Shown one piece after another: positions 5,079-58,779 of a DNA stretch of 58,779 nt. A program made the position numbers and the translations under genes. How positions within the stretch are numbered: position 1 is the first letter of the stretch; every line of letters starts with the position of its first letter. The stretch is from IMG/VR virus record IMGVR_UViG_3300022851_000005, positions 1-58,779 of that record; one strand, 5' to 3'. The notes under the pieces are model-generated. The model saw nothing but the letters and a program-made list of their open reading frames with translations, was not told the DNA's origin and did not search any database. The stretch comes from a virus.

Positions 5079-5455
5079 TGAAAATATTTGATAGTAGTAT
5101 GGGTAATTGGGGAGATAAAGTAAACTTCGTAGATGAAGAGAATGTTTTTGTAGGTTATGATACTGGCCAAAAGTGCTGTGAACACGCTGATTGGATTATA
5201 GCTAATAAGATTGTACCATATAAAGATATGGAGTTTGATTGGGCAACACCTAATACAGAGGGTTATATTTTTGATACTAAATACTTTAACGAAATAGATG
5301 AACCTGACTCAGACGTTTCAGTTATAGCTTTTAAACTTATACACCAAGATCAAGTAGATCTTTACCTACATATATTTAACGTTCATAATGGTTATTATTA
5401 TCATGGCTTTACATTTAAAGATGGTGATAAGGTTATACAAGAGGGTGAATTGTAA
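5078..5455 (+). CDS. Hypothetical acidic protein
   Basis: 125 residues, strongly acidic, rich in aromatic residues (Tyr, Phe, Trp) and containing a YHGFTF segment near the C-terminus. The ribosome site GAGGGATC precedes the ATG, which overlaps the previous stop by one base; its own TAA overlaps the ATG of the sulfotransferase-like gene in the same way. No family recognised. Confidence 0.7.
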   Translation: MKIFDSSMGNWGDKVNFVDEENVFVGYDTGQKCCEHADWIIANKIVPYKDMEFDWATPNTEGYIFDTKYFNEIDEPDSDVSVIAFKLIHQDQVDLYLHIFNVHNGYYYHGFTFKDGDKVIQEGEL

Positions 5456-6045
5456 TGACAGCTATACTACTACATAATCCTAAAGCTATATTCCTTAAGA
5501 CTCCTGAGACCGAATCAGATAAAGTAATAGCTTTATGGCCTGATAGTAATGAGGACAGAGAGATTTCTATTGAATCTCATATACCTAAAAAATATCCTAA
5601 TCACTTTAAGTTTGGATTTGTAAGACATCCCTTTGATAGGTTCGTCAGTTGTTATTATACATATGTTAAAGATTTCGATATACTAATGTCTTTCGAGCAC
5701 TTCATTGATAAGGCCCTATATGAACAGGACTATTATTCTACTTGGTCGCTTACTGTACGCACTCTACCTATGTCTAATGAGTTAAACCTTTTACAACATG
5801 CAGACTTCATAGGTAAGTATGAGAACTTTAAAAAGGATATAGAAGCTATATCTGCATATGTAGGCTTGACAAATACATTAGAACATGTTACAGTAACTGT
5901 AGACAATAAGACATGGGAGGAAGCTATAGGTACACTTAATGAAGAGTACTATAATAAACTATTAGACTATTATAGAACAGACTTCAATACATACTGTTAT
6001 CCTATATTAGAATATGAAGTACTTAATAGCCTGTCCGGGGCCTAG
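5455..6045 (+). CDS. Sulfotransferase-family protein
   Basis: A 196-residue protein with features of PAPS-dependent carbohydrate sulfotransferases. The core motif FVRHPFDRFVSCYY (residues 56-69) carries the Arg57, Pro59, Arg62 and Ser65 that bind the 3'-phosphate of PAPS. The 5'-phosphosulfate loop near residues 13-20 (FLKTPETE) is recognisable but lacks the usual glycine. The C-terminal Y-N-K-L-L-D-Y-Y-R-T-D-F helix is typical of the family. The target could be a surface polysaccharide or other glycan; that is inference. It overlaps the next gene by 32 nt, pointing to a joint pathway. Confidence 0.78.
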   Translation: MTAILLHNPKAIFLKTPETESDKVIALWPDSNEDREISIESHIPKKYPNHFKFGFVRHPFDRFVSCYYTYVKDFDILMSFEHFIDKALYEQDYYSTWSLTVRTLPMSNELNLLQHADFIGKYENFKKDIEAISAYVGLTNTLEHVTVTVDNKTWEEAIGTLNEEYYNKLLDYYRTDFNTYCYPILEYEVLNSLSGA

Positions 6046-10176: not shown

Positions 10177-10800
10177 ATGAAAACGTTAGTAATAGGAGAC
10201 CTACACGGCCAGAAGAATTTAGCAGAAAAAGCTATAGATACAGGATACCCTGTTATATTTGTAGGGGACTATGTAGATTCTTTTAATAAAGATGCGGTTG
10301 CATGTATCGAGACTCTTAAGTTTGTTCTAGAGTCTATAGAGTCTGGGAAGGCTCAAGGACTTTTAGGTAATCATGAGATGAGTTATATAGATGACTCTAT
10401 GAGATGCTCCGGTTATAATCCCCTAACTCATAATATGATTAGACATTTAGATATTAGTAGCTTAAAGAGTTATATGTATGCTGAGGGATTCTTAATTACT
10501 CATGCAGGTATCAGTCAAAACTTATTAAATAGTAATCATATTAATCTAGATGAGTACTTACTTAAAGAAGATTATAATCAGATAGGGAGAAGTCGAGGAG
10601 GTTCCTCTTTATGTGGAGGTCTCTATTGGTGTGACTGGTCAGAGTTTGATCCTGTTGAAGGTGTTGATCAGATTGTAGGGCATTCTAGAGGTAAAGATAT
10701 ACGAGAGAAAAGTAATAACTTCTGTATTGATGTACTAGAGGATTCTAATCCTAGAGGTTTGTTAATAGAAGATGGAGTAGCAGAAATTCTAGAGTTATAA
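10177..10800 (+). CDS. Calcineurin-like metallophosphatase
   Basis: A 207-residue metallophosphatase of the lambda-phosphatase type. Metal ligands are seen in IGDLHG (Asp8, His10), VGDYVDS (Asp31), GNHE (Asn65, His66), ITHAG and IVGHS. It could dephosphorylate proteins or nucleotides; specificity cannot be read from the sequence. A second, unrelated-looking phosphoesterase is at 56085. The start follows AAGGAG closely. Confidence 0.88.
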   Translation: MKTLVIGDLHGQKNLAEKAIDTGYPVIFVGDYVDSFNKDAVACIETLKFVLESIESGKAQGLLGNHEMSYIDDSMRCSGYNPLTHNMIRHLDISSLKSYMYAEGFLITHAGISQNLLNSNHINLDEYLLKEDYNQIGRSRGGSSLCGGLYWCDWSEFDPVEGVDQIVGHSRGKDIREKSNNFCIDVLEDSNPRGLLIEDGVAEILEL

Positions 10801-47178: not shown

Positions 47179-48015
47179 ATGACCTACTTAAATCCTTATA
47201 TCCTAAGACGTTTAAAACTAGGAAGAACTAGTACACCAGCTATAGCGGCCTTATCTACTACAGGTATTATAAGTCGTAGATATAGTCATCAGATACCCCC
47301 TGAATGTGATCTTGTTATTCGATGGGGCTGTACAGCTAACATTAGACAACAGAATGTAATTAATACTGCTCATGCTATTCATGAAGTTAATGATAAAAGC
47401 TTATTTAGAGTTAAACTAAATGAAGCTGAATTATGTCCTGAGACTTGGAACGCTTCTAATAGACATGGTATCGTATTACCTTGTATTGTAAGACCTCAGC
47501 ACCATAGTAGAGGACTTAGGTTATATTATTGTATGAACCAAGTACAACTACAAACAGCTATTGAGCGTTGCGGTGAAGGTTGGTATGCTTCCGAGTATAT
47601 CCCTAAAGTCGCAGAGTATAGAGTCTTTGTATCTCAAGGTCGATGCATTGCAGTAGCTAAAAAGAATCCAGAGAACTCTGAAGCAATCGCTTGGAACGTA
47701 GCACAAGGAGGAGATTTTGAAAATGTCAGATGGGACGCATGGCCCCTTAAAGCCGTCAAGGTCTCTATTGAAGCATTTAACCTTTCCTCATTGGACTTTG
47801 GTGGAGTCGATATTATGGTGGGTAGTAATGGGAATTGTTATGTACTCGAAATTAACAGCGCCCCTAGTCTAACATCCCCATATAGACAGGAGTGCATGAC
47901 TAAAGCTTTAGACTATATGATTACTAATGGTAAAGAAAGGATACCTTTAATAGAAGAAAGGGGAGGATATCTTAAGTTTATTCACCCTTGTATTAATGAG
48001 AGGGCTAGAGTATGA
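47179..48015 (+). CDS. ATP-grasp amide ligase
   Basis: 278 residues. The C-terminal ATP-grasp core is clear: SEYIPKVAEYRVFVS (138-152), lysines 161-162, NVAQGGDFENVRW, LDFGGVDIMV with Asp211, and YVLEINSAPSLTSPY with Glu224 and Asn226 as metal ligands. Such ligases activate a carboxylate with ATP and join it to an amine. Phage relatives sit in operons with class II amidotransferases and glutamine-synthetase-fold ligases, as here. Substrate unknown. Confidence 0.88.
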   Translation: MTYLNPYILRRLKLGRTSTPAIAALSTTGIISRRYSHQIPPECDLVIRWGCTANIRQQNVINTAHAIHEVNDKSLFRVKLNEAELCPETWNASNRHGIVLPCIVRPQHHSRGLRLYYCMNQVQLQTAIERCGEGWYASEYIPKVAEYRVFVSQGRCIAVAKKNPENSEAIAWNVAQGGDFENVRWDAWPLKAVKVSIEAFNLSSLDFGGVDIMVGSNGNCYVLEINSAPSLTSPYRQECMTKALDYMITNGKERIPLIEERGGYLKFIHPCINERARV

Positions 48016-48230
48016 AAATTATAAAGGAACCCAATAAACCTATAGCTCGCTATCAAAACTTTATAACAGGAGATCATATTACTTTGTATAATAGTAGAAA
48101 TGTTTATAATATAATTATAGGACAAGAAGAAGGAATAGTACAATCAACGTTGGAATGTTTTAATATTATAAGTGCTTTAGAGATTTTTAGTAATCAAGTA
48201 AACAAACTAATAGGACTAAAACATGCATAA
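48012..48230 (+). CDS. Hypothetical protein in amidoligase operon
   Basis: 72 residues with strands (ITLYNSRNVYNIIIG) and a C-terminal helix. It overlaps the ATP-grasp gene by 4 nt and the cyclotransferase gene by 8 nt. A small partner protein is possible; not recognised. Confidence 0.6.
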   Translation: MKIIKEPNKPIARYQNFITGDHITLYNSRNVYNIIIGQEEGIVQSTLECFNIISALEIFSNQVNKLIGLKHA

Positions 48231-48576
48231 ATTAGCAGTGTATGGTACATTAAGGTCTAAAGATTCTTGGTCGGGCGTTTTAAGTACTCAAATATATTTA
48301 GGAAAAGGACTTCTCCCTAACAATATAGCTATTCATGATTTAGGAGGTTATCCTGCTGTACGTATTATTAAAGGAGTAGTAGATAAGCCTACAATCTGCG
48401 AAGTCTATGAAATAGATGATGTAGCTCTTGCTCGATGCGATCAAATAGAAGGCCACCCTAATTTTTATGAAAGACGTTTAGTAGATATTGATGGTTATGG
48501 TGATTGTCTTGTATATTTTTTAGATGATTGTGAGTCTTATCCTCGTATTATTTCAGGAGATTGGTTTGATAAATAA
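48223..48576 (+). CDS. Gamma-glutamylcyclotransferase-like (GGCT/AIG2) protein
   Basis: 117 residues with the GGCT fold signature: VYGTLR (6-11), GGYPAV, CEVYEIDD, and the QIEGHPNFYERR stretch with the candidate acid Glu76. These enzymes cleave gamma-glutamyl amides and release 5-oxoproline. Here it could trim or reverse products of the neighbouring ligases. Confidence 0.85.
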   Translation: MHKLAVYGTLRSKDSWSGVLSTQIYLGKGLLPNNIAIHDLGGYPAVRIIKGVVDKPTICEVYEIDDVALARCDQIEGHPNFYERRLVDIDGYGDCLVYFLDDCESYPRIISGDWFDK

Positions 48577-49459
48577 TAAATTATATAACCTTAATTACTA
48601 TTTAGAAATAGGTAATAATAACTTTAGACATAAAACTAGAAAGGATTCTAATTGTATCTGGATAGCTGCGAGATTTGGTTTACCATTTAATGATTATGGT
48701 AGTGATTGTTATAATCAAATATACTATACAGGATGTCATGGTTTCGTTATTGGTGAGGGTATTGAAGACAAAGATGCTGTAATATCTAGTCTTTATAACT
48801 CTTATAATCAGCCTAAATTAACTACTGAAGATTTAGATCAGTATTATTCAGAGGTTATGCCATATTTTAATGCTTATTTGCTTAAGGATTTTGAATTAGG
48901 TGATAAAGTTATAGCGGTTAATCCTAATTGTGCTGGTAATATGGCTATGATGGCTCTTATTATATCTAGGCAGCCTTGGGAATGTCTAAATTTCTTATCA
49001 GTATATATAAAAGCTCGTAAAGAAGGCTATAATCCTCTTATGGCGGTCTATTTGGGTCAGTATACCAAGTACCATCCTATAATGAGAGGTGATTTAAGTA
49101 GCGATCATGATGTATTTAATAACTATATAGATTTAAATAGACTTTATAAGTTTATTGTAACAGGAAAACCTCATATAAAAAACCTTAAAAGTTTTAATCA
49201 AAAGAGCAAAGAGGGTGTATTCAGTGCTTTTAAAGCTAGAGTGTCAGCGCCTTCTTATCATTTGAATACTTTAGGTTTTAGGGATAAATATAAAATTATA
49301 AAGACCTCTTCCTTTAATAATACACATTTTATGAGCGAAGCTGGAGTAGATCCAGAGTTACAATTTAATCATCTTAATGAGGAGGCAGAAAGAGTTATGA
49401 CTAATTTGAATGATAAAGTATATGAGACCTTAAGAGGTAAACCTAAATGTGCGGTATAG
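48566..49459 (+). CDS. Uncharacterised member of the amidoligase operon
   Basis: From TTG 48566, with AGGAG six bases upstream, 297 residues; an ATG at 48524 would overlap the cyclotransferase much more. The sequence contains RKDSNCIWIAARFGLPFND and YYTGCHGFVIG with Cys residues, and a Lys-rich C-terminal third. I recognise no family. Overlaps of 11 nt upstream and 13 nt downstream bind it to the operon, so it probably acts in the same pathway, perhaps as substrate or scaffold. Confidence 0.65.
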   Translation: MINNKLYNLNYYLEIGNNNFRHKTRKDSNCIWIAARFGLPFNDYGSDCYNQIYYTGCHGFVIGEGIEDKDAVISSLYNSYNQPKLTTEDLDQYYSEVMPYFNAYLLKDFELGDKVIAVNPNCAGNMAMMALIISRQPWECLNFLSVYIKARKEGYNPLMAVYLGQYTKYHPIMRGDLSSDHDVFNNYIDLNRLYKFIVTGKPHIKNLKSFNQKSKEGVFSAFKARVSAPSYHLNTLGFRDKYKIIKTSSFNNTHFMSEAGVDPELQFNHLNEEAERVMTNLNDKVYETLRGKPKCAV

Positions 49460-50814
49460 TAGGAGTAGCAGGATATATATCCTCTGATATTGAAAGACTT
49501 TTTACTTCTTTATTACTTATTGATGTACTCCGAGGAAAGGACAGTACCGGGGTTATTAAAGTAAATAATGATAGCCAAGCTACTACTTATCTTAAAATGG
49601 CAGAACCTTCTCCTTATTTTATAGATACTAAGGAATATCAAAGCTTTATGAATACTTTTCATTCAGTATTAGTAGGACATAATAGAGCAGCAACCTTTGG
49701 TAAAGTTACTCATGAGAATGCCCATCCTTTTATGCATAGTAATATAGTAGGGGTACATAATGGGACGTTATCTGATGTAAGTTTACTTCCTAAGCATAAA
49801 GATTTTGACGTAGATAGTGATAACTTAATATATAGTATTGCTACCGATGGTATTAAAGCTACCTATGAAAAGTTAGATGGTGCTGCGGCTTTAGTATGGT
49901 ATGATATAAGTAATTCTACACTATACTTTTTACGGAATTCTGAGAGACCTCTTCATTATGGTTATTTAGAACGTTACAACACTCTCGTATGGTCTAGTGA
50001 TCCTAATATGCTAAGATATGCTATTAAGAACACAAGAAATTGTAATCTTAAAGATGATAAAGTTTATATGTTTAAAGAAGATACTCTTCATAGCTTTGTA
50101 ATACCTAAAAATACAAAGCATGGACAAGAGATGAAACCTAAACTTAGACCTTTAGAACCTTATATAGACCCTTTCCCTACCACAACATATTATGGAAGGT
50201 ATAGTAATTATAAGCCTAATAATAGTAACATTACAAATGTTAATGTTAAAAGATTACCTAGTCCTACTAATCAAAGTAAATCTGTTAATATATACAGTAA
50301 AGGGCCTTTAAAGATTAGGGATACAATATACGCAATATTAGATTCTTATGAAGATAAAGGAGGTAGATTAGTAGGTTATTCTCATCAAGCCCAAAAGAAA
50401 GTATTAATCTATGTTAATGGACAGAAAGATTTACTAGAGATATGCAAAGGGTTTAAGGATAAAACTCTAGATACTGTAACAATAAGAGGTGTAGTTAACT
50501 GGTTCGGAGCAGTACAAGGTATAGCAGGTGATCCTGTTTTAGACCCTTCAAGTATAAACATACTTTCTAAGGTACTTCCAGAAAAAAAGTTTAAATCTTC
50601 AGCAAAGAAACCTACAGGGGAAGTCGTTAAAATCGGGACTAGCTACCTTGCTGAAGAAGATTGGAATAGGCTAGTATCTCAGGGTTGTAAAGAATGTGGT
50701 GATAAACCCTTATCTCTAAACGCTGACGAGCTTTATTGGGAACCTGATGGTAGTTTCCTATGTTCAGACAACTGTATTATGACCCAAAAAGAGGAGTATA
50801 AATTATGGTTTTAA
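49447..50814 (+). CDS. Class II glutamine amidotransferase
   Basis: 455 residues. The N-terminal Ntn domain starts M-C-G-I-V-G, so Cys2 is the nucleophile after Met removal. RGKDSTG (29-35), GHNRAATFG (77-85), NAHPF (91-95) and GVHNG (102-106) complete the glutaminase site. The C-terminal half is novel to me and ends in a Cys cluster (GCKECG, then CSDNC) fit for zinc. The enzyme should release ammonia from glutamine for a ligase in the same operon. It overlaps both neighbours. Confidence 0.9.
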   Translation: MCGIVGVAGYISSDIERLFTSLLLIDVLRGKDSTGVIKVNNDSQATTYLKMAEPSPYFIDTKEYQSFMNTFHSVLVGHNRAATFGKVTHENAHPFMHSNIVGVHNGTLSDVSLLPKHKDFDVDSDNLIYSIATDGIKATYEKLDGAAALVWYDISNSTLYFLRNSERPLHYGYLERYNTLVWSSDPNMLRYAIKNTRNCNLKDDKVYMFKEDTLHSFVIPKNTKHGQEMKPKLRPLEPYIDPFPTTTYYGRYSNYKPNNSNITNVNVKRLPSPTNQSKSVNIYSKGPLKIRDTIYAILDSYEDKGGRLVGYSHQAQKKVLIYVNGQKDLLEICKGFKDKTLDTVTIRGVVNWFGAVQGIAGDPVLDPSSINILSKVLPEKKFKSSAKKPTGEVVKIGTSYLAEEDWNRLVSQGCKECGDKPLSLNADELYWEPDGSFLCSDNCIMTQKEEYKLWF

Positions 50815-51590
50815 AAGTAGGAGCAGATCCAGAGCTGTTCATTAAAGATAGATCAGGTATTCTTGTTTCCGGATTTTCAATGATTAGGGGGACTAAGGTA
50901 CATCCCTTTCCTGTTAATAAAGGAGCAGTACAGGTCGATGGTATAGCCTTAGAATACAATATTGATCCTGCTACGACTGTCGAAGACTTTGTAAACAATA
51001 ACTGTACAGTAATGAGATCATTAATAAAAATGATACCTCCTAACTTAGAGTTTAATATAATCCCTTGTGTGGATATTACTCCTGACTTTTATAAGTCACA
51101 ACCAGATGAAGCTATGATGTTAGGGTGTGAACCTTCTTATAATGCTTACAGCGAAGACGTAGAAAAAGTAAGTCCTCTATCTCATATTAGAACGGCAGCA
51201 GGGCATCTACATTTAGGATGGACAGACGATACTGAAGCTAATAATGCTCAACATTTCTTCGATTGTTGTGCTCTTGTTAAAGAGTTGGATGTATTTTATA
51301 ATGTTTTAACATTACACTACTCTGATATAGAATTAGAAATGAAGCGTAAAATGCTATATGGTGCTGCGGGTTCATTTAGACCTAAATCTTACGGTGTAGA
51401 GTATAGGGCTTTATCTAATTTTTGGATTAAAGATGAAGAGCTTATGAAAAAAGTGTTTGAAATAGCTCAGACAGTTTTTAATAGGATGCTTACAGGTGAA
51501 AAACTATTATCTGATATATATACAGGTAGAGAATTAGACCGTGTAACTAAAGAACAGATAGAAGAGGTAAGTAGCCTTGTTTCAATTTAA
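50805..51590 (+). CDS. phiEco32-type COOH-NH2 ligase (type 2)
   Basis: 261 residues with the glutamine-synthetase-like layout of this family: GADPELFI (Glu10), VDGIALEYN (Asp45, Glu50), AAGHLHLGW (His134, His136) and SYGVEYRAL (Glu199, Arg201). It should form an amide bond at the cost of ATP. It overlaps the amidotransferase by 10 nt, which fits transfer of ammonia or joint regulation. Substrate unknown. Confidence 0.88.
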   Translation: MVLKVGADPELFIKDRSGILVSGFSMIRGTKVHPFPVNKGAVQVDGIALEYNIDPATTVEDFVNNNCTVMRSLIKMIPPNLEFNIIPCVDITPDFYKSQPDEAMMLGCEPSYNAYSEDVEKVSPLSHIRTAAGHLHLGWTDDTEANNAQHFFDCCALVKELDVFYNVLTLHYSDIELEMKRKMLYGAAGSFRPKSYGVEYRALSNFWIKDEELMKKVFEIAQTVFNRMLTGEKLLSDIYTGRELDRVTKEQIEEVSSLVSI

Positions 51591-52185
51591 TAAAATGGCT
51601 AATGAAGATATAAATAGTAGATATAATAATGCTATAATTTTAGTTAACGGTAGATTATTTATTTGTTATGATTCAGATAAGCATAACTTAGAAGGTAGAT
51701 ACTTAAATGAAGAAAATACTTCTGTGATATCTACAAAACATAACGATATAAATACACAAAGCCCTAAACTAGGTTATTTAAATTATGGTAATCATACTAC
51801 ATATGTATCAAGAATACCTGTAAGATTTTATAGGCATGGTCTTAATGTCCGTAATTTAGTAAGTTTTTCACCTACTGACGGAAGACGTAGAGATACGTTT
51901 AGTTTTTTAGAACATAATACAATCTTCTCTGAAGGTCTACAAAATACTATACATAATAAATACCCTACTTTTAAGCAGTGTATAGTTAAAGTAGGTACAT
52001 TAAAGTCGAGAATAAGGTCTAATGCTTTCGATAGAGAGAGCGCTTTAGTATCTGTAAATGGTGTAATAAATGTATATTTTGGTACTACTAAAGTAGGGAA
52101 AGTAGTAGAGGATATGGTTATTTTAGATGATGAGCATATGTATCTTAAAGAATATTTTGGAGAATTAGATGTCCCTATACACTAG
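51577..52185 (+). CDS. Uncharacterised member of the amidoligase operon
   Basis: 202 residues from TTG 51577 (AGAGG upstream); ATG 51595 is an alternative. Beta-rich, with NAIILVNGRLFICYD and a similar SALVSVNGVINVYFG later, perhaps two copies of one strand unit. No family recognised. Overlaps of 14 and 17 nt tie it to both ligase genes. Confidence 0.62.
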   Translation: MFQFNKMANEDINSRYNNAIILVNGRLFICYDSDKHNLEGRYLNEENTSVISTKHNDINTQSPKLGYLNYGNHTTYVSRIPVRFYRHGLNVRNLVSFSPTDGRRRDTFSFLEHNTIFSEGLQNTIHNKYPTFKQCIVKVGTLKSRIRSNAFDRESALVSVNGVINVYFGTTKVGKVVEDMVILDDEHMYLKEYFGELDVPIH

Positions 52186-53605
52186 TGTATATGATAAAAA
52201 ATTAACAGACGAGTTAGGGCTAGTTAGTCCTGAAGGTGATGTAGGACTAGAAATTGAAGCTGAGGTAATAGAATATATTTCAGACTCTAAAGAACTATCT
52301 TTTTGGAGAAAAGAACAAGATGGATCGTTAAGAGGCCCTAATTATGAATTAGTTTTAAAGAGACCTATACCCCATACTTTAGTACCTAAAGCTCTCCAAC
52401 AGGCTTATGAGTTTTTAAATAAAGGACGCTATCCAGACAGCGATAACTGTGGGGTACATGTACATCTTAATATGACACAGTGTACTATAAGAGAACTTGT
52501 CAATCTCATTGCTGTATACTTTATTTTAGAGCCTTTGTTAATATCTATTTGTTCCCCTACTCGTAAGGGTAATTATTTTTGCCTGTCTGCTTTAGAATCT
52601 CATACTCAATTTGAGACCTTAGAAAAGATATCTAATATAAATTTCTCAATGCTCCGTGATTCTATGAAATATGCAGGTATTAATTTAGGAGCTTTAACAA
52701 GTTATGGCTCCTTAGAATTTAGACACCTTCAGTTCCCTGTAACTGAAGAATTTTTAAATAAATGGGTTGACATTTTATGTGAAATAAAGCATAATATACT
52801 AGAGTTAAGTAAAAGTAAGGACTCAGATATAGTATGTAGACGTATATCTGAAATGGGTATAGTAGACTTTGTAAAAGATTATGCCCCTAGCCTTGCTGAA
52901 CTTTTAGACTTTGAAGATAAAGATTTACTTAATGAATGTAGAATATCTATGAGAAAAGCCCAAGTACCTCTATTTACTATGGCGAGAAATATAGTAAAAG
53001 GAAGTAAGTTTAGGGCTTATAGTGAAGATATTAAAGCTAGTGAAGATACTCTGCCCACATATACTACTCTGCCCACATATACTATACCTGAAAGTTCACC
53101 TACATTTGTACCTGAGGGTAGTTTTGATTTTAGTACACATGTATATACCTCTATATCCTGCATAGATATAAACTTCACAAAGGCTAATGGAGAGAATGTA
53201 AATATTAAGCGTTTAGATAACTTTATGGAGTTATATATTCATACAGACTACGAATTAGGGATAGCTCTTCAAGGTAGAAGATGCTTACTTAACAGAAGTA
53301 AGGTGGAAATATTACATGATAAACTACCTAGAGATTTGATTAATAGTAATAATAATAGAATACTTAGATATCTAGATTCTTTTATAGAAAGAAGAAGATA
53401 TGCTGACTACTTAGAGGCTTATATTGAGTATGTAGTTCCTTTAGGTTTAGAGCTAAATAGAAATAGAGATAATATAGAGAATAGCCCTGTAGGTAGATCT
53501 ATGGGTTCAGGATCAGATTTATCAGAAGCTTTACAACGATATACTACAAGAAACTCTGATGCAGATACTCCTGAGCCTAATCCGCGTTTCATTAATCCTA
53601 CCTAG
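52169..53605 (+). CDS. Amidoligase (Amidoligase_2 family)
   Basis: 478 residues. The first 200 carry the family motifs: GLEIEAE (Glu28, Glu30), EQDGSLRG, YELVL, NCGVHVHLN (His97, His99), RKGNYFC and YGSLEFRH (Glu183, Arg185). These are ATP-dependent ligases of the glutamine-synthetase fold. The C-terminal 200 residues are poorly conserved, Thr/Pro-rich around 290-315 and then helical, ending with a Ser/Gly tail. It closes the operon and holds an internal promoter. Confidence 0.85.
   Translation: MSLYTSVYDKKLTDELGLVSPEGDVGLEIEAEVIEYISDSKELSFWRKEQDGSLRGPNYELVLKRPIPHTLVPKALQQAYEFLNKGRYPDSDNCGVHVHLNMTQCTIRELVNLIAVYFILEPLLISICSPTRKGNYFCLSALESHTQFETLEKISNINFSMLRDSMKYAGINLGALTSYGSLEFRHLQFPVTEEFLNKWVDILCEIKHNILELSKSKDSDIVCRRISEMGIVDFVKDYAPSLAELLDFEDKDLLNECRISMRKAQVPLFTMARNIVKGSKFRAYSEDIKASEDTLPTYTTLPTYTIPESSPTFVPEGSFDFSTHVYTSISCIDINFTKANGENVNIKRLDNFMELYIHTDYELGIALQGRRCLLNRSKVEILHDKLPRDLINSNNNRILRYLDSFIERRRYADYLEAYIEYVVPLGLELNRNRDNIENSPVGRSMGSGSDLSEALQRYTTRNSDADTPEPNPRFINPT
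52767..52795 (+). promoter_or_regulatory. Internal promoter, 11/12 match
   Basis: TTGACA (52767-52772), 17-bp spacer, CATAAT (52790-52795), within the amidoligase gene. It could supply separate transcripts for the genes from 53638, including ThyX. Confidence 0.5.
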
Positions 53606-53637: not shown

Positions 53638-53913
53638 ATGATGATAATAAAATGTTCAATCTGCCCAGCAGAAGACAACATGAGAGAATTAACACGACCT
53701 TGGTTTGAAGATGGTAATACTGATTTATGTCCTGATTGCTATGAAAGCTTTGCAGATGATAATGACTTACTAGTTAGTGAGTATAAAGAACGTAAGGAGA
53801 TAATATTCGATAGACTTAGAGAGAAAACGAAAATAAAAGATAGTATAAAAGTAGATAATGTACTGAAATTAGTTAGTAAAGAAAACACTGAGGATTTATT
53901 GGATGAAAGTTAA
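53638..53913 (+). CDS. Small zinc-binding-like protein
   Basis: 91 residues. C-S-I-C near the N-terminus and C-P-D-C (about residues 31-34) form a probable four-Cys zinc site; the rest is a charged helix. An A-rich leader (AATAATAATAAAAAGAAG) precedes the ATG. It overlaps ThyX by 11 nt. Function unknown. Confidence 0.65.
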   Translation: MMIIKCSICPAEDNMRELTRPWFEDGNTDLCPDCYESFADDNDLLVSEYKERKEIIFDRLREKTKIKDSIKVDNVLKLVSKENTEDLLDES

Positions 53914-54544
53914 ATTAATTTCTCATACTATTCCAGTAGATAATAGTATACCTAAAAATCTATTAGAACTTGTAGCCTATATAGCTAGAGTAAGTAACCC
54001 TAGTTCTCAAATCGAAAATATGAATAGTGGTAAACTTCTAGACTATTTAGAACGTAATAATCACTGGTCTCCATTTGAAATGGTTAATATATGTATTGAG
54101 ATAGAGACTACTCGTGATATAGCTAGGCAAATATTAAGGCATAGATCGTTCTCTTTTCAAGAGTTTAGTCAACGCTACGCAGACCCGAGCGAAGAGGGAT
54201 TGACATTCTCGCTGAGACCTGCCAGAATGCAAGACAGCTCGAACAGGCAGAACTCTACTGAATGTAATGATAAAGACTTAATGGAGTGGTGGGTACAACA
54301 ACAGAAGAAAGTTAAAGATGTAAGTCTTTCAGCTTATACTCAGGCTTTAGAAAAGGGTATAGCTAAAGAGGTAGCTAGAGCATTATTACCTGAAGGTATG
54401 ACAGGTTCTAGACTATACATGAATGGTTCTTTAAGATCTTGGTTGCACTATATAGAGCTTAGAGAAGGTAACGGTACTCAACTTGAACATCAAGAAATTG
54501 CTGTTGAGTGTAGTAAAATTATTCTAAAGCTTATGGAGTCTTAG
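53903..54544 (+). CDS. thyX: Flavin-dependent thymidylate synthase
   Basis: 213 residues, standard length for ThyX. The signature RHR-x7-S is present (Arg79, His80, Arg81, Ser89, in LRHRSFSFQEFSQRY), as are ARALLPEG and RSWLHYIELREGNGTQLEHQ near the C-terminus. It makes dTMP from dUMP with FAD and methylene-tetrahydrofolate, complementing the ribonucleotide reductase. Around 54180-54245 the codon use turns locally GC-rich, which is odd for this genome. Confidence 0.95.
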   Translation: MKVKLISHTIPVDNSIPKNLLELVAYIARVSNPSSQIENMNSGKLLDYLERNNHWSPFEMVNICIEIETTRDIARQILRHRSFSFQEFSQRYADPSEEGLTFSLRPARMQDSSNRQNSTECNDKDLMEWWVQQQKKVKDVSLSAYTQALEKGIAKEVARALLPEGMTGSRLYMNGSLRSWLHYIELREGNGTQLEHQEIAVECSKIILKLMES

Positions 54545-56084: not shown

Positions 56085-56597
56085 ATGAACAAGTGGATAA
56101 TAAGTGACCTGCATCTAGGACATAAAAGTATCCTAGAATTTGAACCTAATAGACTAGGAGAGAAAGTAGATAGTGTAGAAGAGCATGATGATATCTTAGA
56201 AGTAAGATACAGAGCTACTGTACAACCTAAAGATACATGTTATTTCTTAGGTGACGTAGCCTTCTCAGCTAAAAAGCTAGAGAGTATTAAGAACTGGCCG
56301 GGGCGTAAAGTATTAATACGAGGGAACCACGATGATAAATCAGAGGAACTCTATAGACATATATTTACTAAAATCTATGGAGTCCTTAAAATTGATAGGG
56401 TCTGGTTCAGTCATGCACCTATACATACTCAAGAGCTTAGAGGGTGTCCTAGTGTACATGGTCATGTTCATAGTAATATAATTCTTGATGGGTATCATAG
56501 ACCTGATAAGCGCTATAGAGCAGTATGTGTAGAACAGAATCAAGGATGGCCTGAAAGTTTTGATAGAGTTATTGAGGAGGTAAAATCTAATGGATAA
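56085..56597 (+). CDS. Calcineurin-like phosphoesterase
   Basis: 170 residues of the YfcE/MJ0936 or UDP-sugar hydrolase-like type: SDLHLGH (Asp8, His10), LGDVAF (Asp57), RGNHDD (Asn81, His82), FSHAP (His110) and VHGHVH (125-129). All metal ligands are in place. Substrate unknown; possibly nucleotides or cyclic nucleotides. Distinct from the phosphatase at 10177. Confidence 0.88.
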   Translation: MNKWIISDLHLGHKSILEFEPNRLGEKVDSVEEHDDILEVRYRATVQPKDTCYFLGDVAFSAKKLESIKNWPGRKVLIRGNHDDKSEELYRHIFTKIYGVLKIDRVWFSHAPIHTQELRGCPSVHGHVHSNIILDGYHRPDKRYRAVCVEQNQGWPESFDRVIEEVKSNG

Positions 56598-58615: not shown

Positions 58616-58779
58616 ATGAACACAGAAGAACAGATTGAGATTGTAAAGGCTAACGGGGCGGGGAAGCTGATCGAGGGGCGACACTTACACATTTCCGACT
58701 CGTGGCACCTGACAAGCCCATTTGAGCCTCTAAACTTTGCCGAGTATGAATACCGCATCAAAGAGCAGCCAGAGAGTAT
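58616..58779 (+). CDS. Hypothetical protein, 5' part of the gene crossing the join
   Basis: ATG 58616 after AAAGGAGTAGGT. The frame continues at position 1 after the 127-base overlap and ends at 251, giving 95 residues. The first residues are MNTEEQIEIVKANGAGKLIEG. Unknown function. Confidence 0.75.
   Translation, partial: MNTEEQIEIVKANGAGKLIEGRHLHISDSWHLTSPFEPLNFAEYEYRIKEQPES
58653..58779. repeat. Exact terminal direct repeat (second copy)
   Basis: Identical to 1-127; see that entry. When merged the circle is 58,652 bp. Confidence 0.95.

Follow-up and report, generated by a model that had tools for sequence, protein, structure and literature searches.

A conserved phage amidoligase cassette and its proposed gamma-glutamyl chemistry in a complete phage genome

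Introduction

A seven-gene 'peptidoglycan modification cassette' is common to the phages RIO-1, phiEco32, 7-11, PA11, tf, MR299-2, LUZ24, PaP3 and CW02 (PMC5498523), seven open reading frames (ORFs) of the module occur in phiM6 (PMC6256558), and the LUZ24-like phage U17 also carries the cassette (PMC11945000). In their passages on its origin, these three papers credit the concept to two earlier studies, Iyer et al. 2009 and, on phiRIO-1, Hardies et al. 2013, and in all of them the role in peptidoglycan modification is only proposed. Here we analyze a cassette of this kind in the IMG/VR virus record IMGVR_UViG_3300022851_000005, the whole 58,779-nucleotide stretch of which (positions 1 to 58,779) is referred to as the window. 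An earlier note, made from the letters of the window alone, had described an operon of five enzymes at 47179-53605 and placed it among the phage sets of Iyer and colleagues, an attribution in line with the credit given in those passages.

In the phiEco32-like phage SU10, mass spectrometry detected three early-region products, an ATP-grasp protein, a glutamine amidotransferase (GATase) and a protein of YtfP type, which indicates that cassette products are made during infection (PMC4281155). For Phage-ZRK32, whose genes include an amidoligase, a GATase, a gamma-glutamyl cyclotransferase (GGCT) and a 'glutathione synthase', better growth of the host with nitrate or ammonium has been reported, a claim made at the level of the whole phage with no mutation tying the genes to the effect (PMC10945688). 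In the literature searched we found no gene-level experiment on the cassette, no description of a cassette deletion and no work on phage-encoded RimK glutamylation. The earlier note's statement that no experimental function is known thus holds for the genes themselves, while it missed both the physiological claim for Phage-ZRK32 and a hydrolase of the C26 family that relatives carry.

Cassette membership and synteny

The exact recurrence of the first 127 bases at the end (direct terminal repeat, 1-127 = 58653-58779) shows the window to be a complete phage genome of ~58.65 kb. Eight plus-strand genes occupy 47179-53605 in the order K-h-Y-w-N-C-U-A, and every junction overlaps by 4-17 bp, the head-to-tail arrangement that had been reported for the locus (Table 1). 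Matches of the five named enzymes (K, Y, N, C and A) to Pfam lie above the curated cut-offs and PHROGs agree, so that each domain first named from the sequence is confirmed by profile search; a 72-aa ORF (h) and the two conserved proteins w and U had been left out of that first gene list.

Table 1. Genes of the cassette in the window, in map order
Gene	Predicted product	Position	Strand	Length	Profile matches and remarks
K	ATP-grasp ligase, RimK / alpha-L-glutamate ligase type	47179..48015	+	278 aa	PF08443 (RimK) 6.8e-8; phrog_2599 3.7e-22
h	72-aa ORF	48012..48230	+	72 aa	overlaps both neighbours
Y	gamma-glutamyl (amine) cyclotransferase, GGCT/AIG2 type	48223..48576	+	117 aa	PF06094 1.5e-14
w	X310 family, conserved cassette protein	48524..49459	+	311 aa	
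N	class II (Ntn) glutamine amidotransferase	49447..50814	+	455 aa	PF13522 1.1e-14; phrog_4736 2.4e-80
C	phiEco32-like COOH-NH2 ligase	50805..51590	+	261 aa	PF14395 1.4e-7; phrog_3815 3.1e-63
U	conserved cassette protein	51577..52185	+	202 aa	phrog_11055; TTG start; between ligases C and A
A	Amidoligase_2 ligase	52169..53605	+	478 aa	PF12224 4.8e-5; phrog_7469 8.9e-47; C-terminal extension ~190 aa

We regard it as close to certain that this locus is a complete example of the amidoligase cassette already described in phages. Profiles made without this virus recover every tested cassette member (E 6e-16 to 2e-104), including U at 3.9e-37 and w at 6.1e-16, which puts membership far beyond chance. 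A search of 50,697 phage records found relatives of the C ligase in 317, and at least 387 stretches of IMG/VR have one as well. The synteny sample comprised 85 loci, among them the window, with one or two cultured phages represented double; 77 of these loci, the window included, have the block N-C-U-A. Rearranged orders account for some of the other eight (LUZ24-like DL54, Privateer and two loci with N-U-A-C), and truncation at a contig end or a partial locus for the rest. Cultured phages with the same cassette are PA11, CW02, LUZ24, phiEco32, RIO-1, phiM6 and Privateer; the cassette is a widespread multi-enzyme set of podovirus-type phages that includes lytic Pseudomonas and E. coli phages grown in the laboratory.

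As in the described cassettes, class II GATase, COOH-NH2 ligase, U, Amidoligase_2, ATP-grasp and GGCT genes are gathered in one early operon near primase/helicase. The cassettes of relatives lie upstream of primase/helicase and DNA polymerase; the window's primase/helicase is at 568, and the cassette is upstream of it when the sequence is read around the terminal repeat. The window differs from the usual N-C-U-A-K arrangement in that K, h and the GGCT gene precede N and a C26 gene is missing. K follows A in most loci, whereas the window is one of several that have it before N. Three other loci (L068, L072 and L084) have two ATP-grasp copies each, one on either side of N-C-U-A.

Proteins w and U are conserved alongside the enzymes. 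Family w (X310) is present in 56 of the 64 loci with enough upstream sequence. In the window, AGGAG, the best ribosome-binding site, precedes a TTG at 48566, the likely real start of w, which would give a protein of 297 aa. Single-sequence locus searches with U or w returned this virus only, and family profiles then recovered the relatives, since individual sequences diverge too fast for the former. The AF2 structure model of U (pLDDT 91) found no confident match in the PDB, where weak KOW/EF-P-like small-barrel matches were the sole result, and its matches in BFVD are unnamed phage proteins only. ORF h had no Pfam or PHROGs match above chance and occurs only in this virus. The conservation of U and w, the probable TTG start of w, the fold of C and the distribution of C26 and GGCT described below are new here.

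Active sites and ligase folds

The earlier note had named loss of catalytic residues as one outcome that would speak against it; these residues are conserved among relatives of N, C, A, K and Y alike, and judged by sequence the active sites of all five enzymes are intact, so that the objection falls. In K, residues K73, E146, R148, K162, D211, E224 and N226 are invariant in 40 of 40 relatives. The K family profile matches solved RimK/alpha-L-glutamate ligases at 5.6e-10, S6 alpha-L-glutamate ligases being nearest, and K has the ATP-grasp metal residues D, E and N, with the last-strand motif ExN (E224-x-N226) likewise invariant in 40/40; on this match and these residues we assign K to the RimK-type ATP-grasp enzymes. 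Pfam also scores K above the cut-off for R2K_3, a family in which ExGD replaces ExN in the last strand (PMC4431377); the invariant ExN does not fit that assignment.

For Y, the motif YGTL/YGSL and Glu76 are kept in 20/20 sequences, the window copy having YGTL. N retains the amidotransferase residues of the N-terminal nucleophile (Ntn) class: the C2 nucleophile, R80, N105-G106 and D123. It also has a C-terminal Cys4 zinc-ribbon-like motif (CxxC...CxxC), found in at least 38 of 40 relatives and with the last Cys one residue off in the window copy; nothing was found on the role of this motif. In one relative (L035:7743-9950), a single 736-aa frame is prohead-protease/capsid-like in its N-terminal part and continues as the C-terminal half of a cassette GATase, and this contig looks chimeric.

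The two amidoligases are as strictly preserved, with D8, E10, D45, E50, H134, H136, R192, E199 and R201 of C invariant in 51/51 relatives and E28, E30, E32, E60, H97, H99, R132, E183 and R185 of A in 49/49. PDB sequence searches with C, A and U gave nothing useful. The AF2 model of C (pLDDT 91.6), however, matches glutamine synthetases (GS), plant glutamate-cysteine ligase, YbdK and gamma-glutamylmethylamide synthetase (GmaS) in fold searches at probability ~1, although TM-scores to the GS-like matches are only 0.4-0.56. By this model, C has a GS-like fold with GS-like metal/phosphate residues. A and C share the same order of these residues, E.E...E...HxH...R...ExR. A comparison of their profiles produced no global alignment and paired the HxH stretch alone, at 0.7% probability, so that their kinship rests on the residue pattern and on the classification of Amidoligase_2, which we take to be GS-like. 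Two ligase fold classes, ATP-grasp and GS-like, with A placed in the latter on that pattern, are therefore more likely than the three independent folds originally suggested.

C26 hydrolase and GGCT

Clustering of neighbouring genes revealed that most relatives encode a protein of 213 aa ~0.9 kb upstream of N. Its match to Peptidase_C26, the family of gamma-glutamyl hydrolases, is at 4.1e-19 versus 1.9e-5 for class I GATase, and it has the motifs Q.HPE in 66/66 and GICRG[GA]Q in 54/66 sequences. Whole-record searches (n=51) found C26 in 44 records and GGCT in 20. C26 is absent from the window, an absence that is real because the genome is complete, and the window's candidate for releasing gamma-glutamyl groups is its GGCT.

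Among 54 usable rows, which include LUZ24, phiEco32, RIO-1, phiM6 and T2S2 (those partly by record sections), GGCT is present in 9/9 without C26 (the window included) and in 15/45 with C26 (Fisher p=0.00025, kinship ignored). With G009, whose cassette is at a contig end, left out, 8/8 rows without C26 carry GGCT (p=0.0006). A further contig, G013, lacks both genes but begins inside N. The presence of GGCT wherever C26 is missing suggests that the two enzymes do the same job, which would be to open a gamma-glutamyl amide.

Proposed pathway and its alternatives

Two known enzyme pairs follow the same gamma-glutamyl logic. In the E. coli Puu pathway, PuuA is a GS-like gamma-glutamylputrescine ligase and PuuD a C26 hydrolase; the cassette likewise combines a GS-like ligase with C26 in most relatives, the window excepted. 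Unlike that pathway, it includes a class II GATase and has three ligases in all, and no PuuB/PuuC oxidising enzymes were recognised in it. In butirosin side-chain synthesis, the ATP-grasp enzyme BtrJ and the GGCT-like BtrG add and release a gamma-glutamyl group, and the cassette too pairs an ATP-grasp ligase with a GGCT-type enzyme, whereas genes for an acyl carrier protein or for an antibiotic core were not recognised and GS-like ligases and a GATase are added.

We somewhat favor the view that the cassette encodes an early-expressed cytoplasmic glutamate/glutamine pathway with the steps set out here; their substrates, order and target are what we infer. Glutamine would be the compound from which the class II GATase N releases ammonia (or a gamma-glutamyl group). 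The GS-like C, together with A as a second such ligase, would couple a carboxylate of glutamate type with an amine at the expense of ATP, yielding a gamma-glutamyl-type amide, to which the RimK-type K would attach at least one L-amino acid, glutamate being the most likely. The gamma-glutamyl group would then be removed by GGCT in the window, leaving 5-oxoproline, and by the C26 gamma-glutamyl hydrolase in most relatives, with U and X (w) as conserved partners. The acceptor would most likely be a precursor of the host envelope, for instance the stem peptide of peptidoglycan, which might be altered so that later phages are blocked or lysis is prepared; a peptidoglycan precursor as the actual target is a tentative suggestion. 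That gamma-glutamyl chemistry is the business of the cassette appears fairly probable, and is supported by the fold matches of C, which include gamma-glutamylmethylamide synthetase and YbdK; glutamate addition by K is in turn supported by its nearest solved relatives. The absence of any clear signal peptide or membrane segment from the cassette enzymes, whose sole hydrophobic stretch lies inside A at 110, is consistent with a cytoplasmic location. A multistep amide-forming pathway, as proposed from the sequence, is judged likely, and the narrowing to gamma-glutamyl amides, with two release enzymes that appear to replace one another and with w and U as conserved partners, makes concrete assays possible.

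Several observations weigh against this pathway. The ligase tree implies at least seven changes of C26, yet only one independent pair falls on well-supported branches; the tree is poorly resolved, the C26/GGCT pattern amounts to few independent events and is weak once kinship is considered, and a phylogenetic sign test of C26 versus GGCT was powerless with its one supported pair. Fifteen records carry C26 and GGCT together, and Pfam matches to either family are no proof of gamma-glutamyl amide activity. Pelagibacter phage HTVC115P is without the cassette, which indicates that it is dispensable in the HTVC115P group. The Cys4 motif of N might also mean that the target is a nucleic acid or a protein and not a precursor of the envelope.

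Other arrangements of the same enzymes are conceivable. One possible but doubtful version is a protect-and-release pathway, in which the GS-like ligase(s) would add a gamma-glutamyl group to an amine-bearing intermediate, the other ligases would extend or transfer it, C26 or GGCT, evolutionarily interchangeable, would remove it, and U and X, as proteins of a kind so far undescribed, would handle the substrate or a carrier. Alternatively, K, C and A might place glutamate or peptide tags on a host protein (a ribosomal protein or RNA polymerase) early in infection, with GGCT, C26 and N trimming them. The S6 ligases nearest K, the early gene position and the hint of macromolecule contact in the Cys4 motif fit such tagging, and R2K-type phage ligases have been proposed as host-protein taggers (PMC4431377). 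K, however, carries ExN and not the ExGD of R2K.3, neither a tag peptide nor a gene for an acceptor could be recognised within the cassette, and simple glutamylation needs no two further GS-like ligases, which leaves tagging unlikely.

Somewhat less probable still is nitrogen or amino-acid salvage, in which the cassette would be a set of auxiliary metabolic genes running a gamma-glutamyl/glutathione-like cycle that aids nitrogen assimilation by host or phage. The reported growth effect of Phage-ZRK32 agrees with it, but that work tested the phage and not the genes (PMC10945688), lytic phages widely carry the cassette, and salvage leaves U, X and the strict N-C-U-A synteny unexplained. As for hypermodification of phage DNA, with ligases attaching an amino-acid amide to a modified base, ThyX (53903-54544) adjoins the cassette in the window as in some relatives, and replication genes lie downstream. 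Heavy modification is nevertheless disfavoured by the cutting of DNA of the cassette-bearing U17 by 11/16 restriction enzymes (PMC11945000) and by the cloning of tf DNA after digestion with RsaI, HpaI, EcoRV and SmaI (PMC3517423). Within the subset of window ORFs scanned, there was no hydroxymethylase or base transferase match. DNA modification is thus an unlikely role for the cassette, and by a wide measure the least probable of those considered.

Genome context

The TerL of the window is nearest to those of HMO-2011-type marine podoviruses, with 61% to HTVC115P, the closest cultured TerL relative. A 30-kb IMG/VR contig, L008 (IMGVR_UViG_3300023240_000078), has a C ligase, U and w all identical to those of the window and, on that identity, is taken to represent this virus, or one almost identical to it, recovered a second time. 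Elsewhere in the window, a sulfotransferase-family gene (PF03567 3.4e-13) at 5455-6045 is unusual for a phage replication region, and two separate metallophosphoesterase genes are located at 10177-10800 and 56085-56597.

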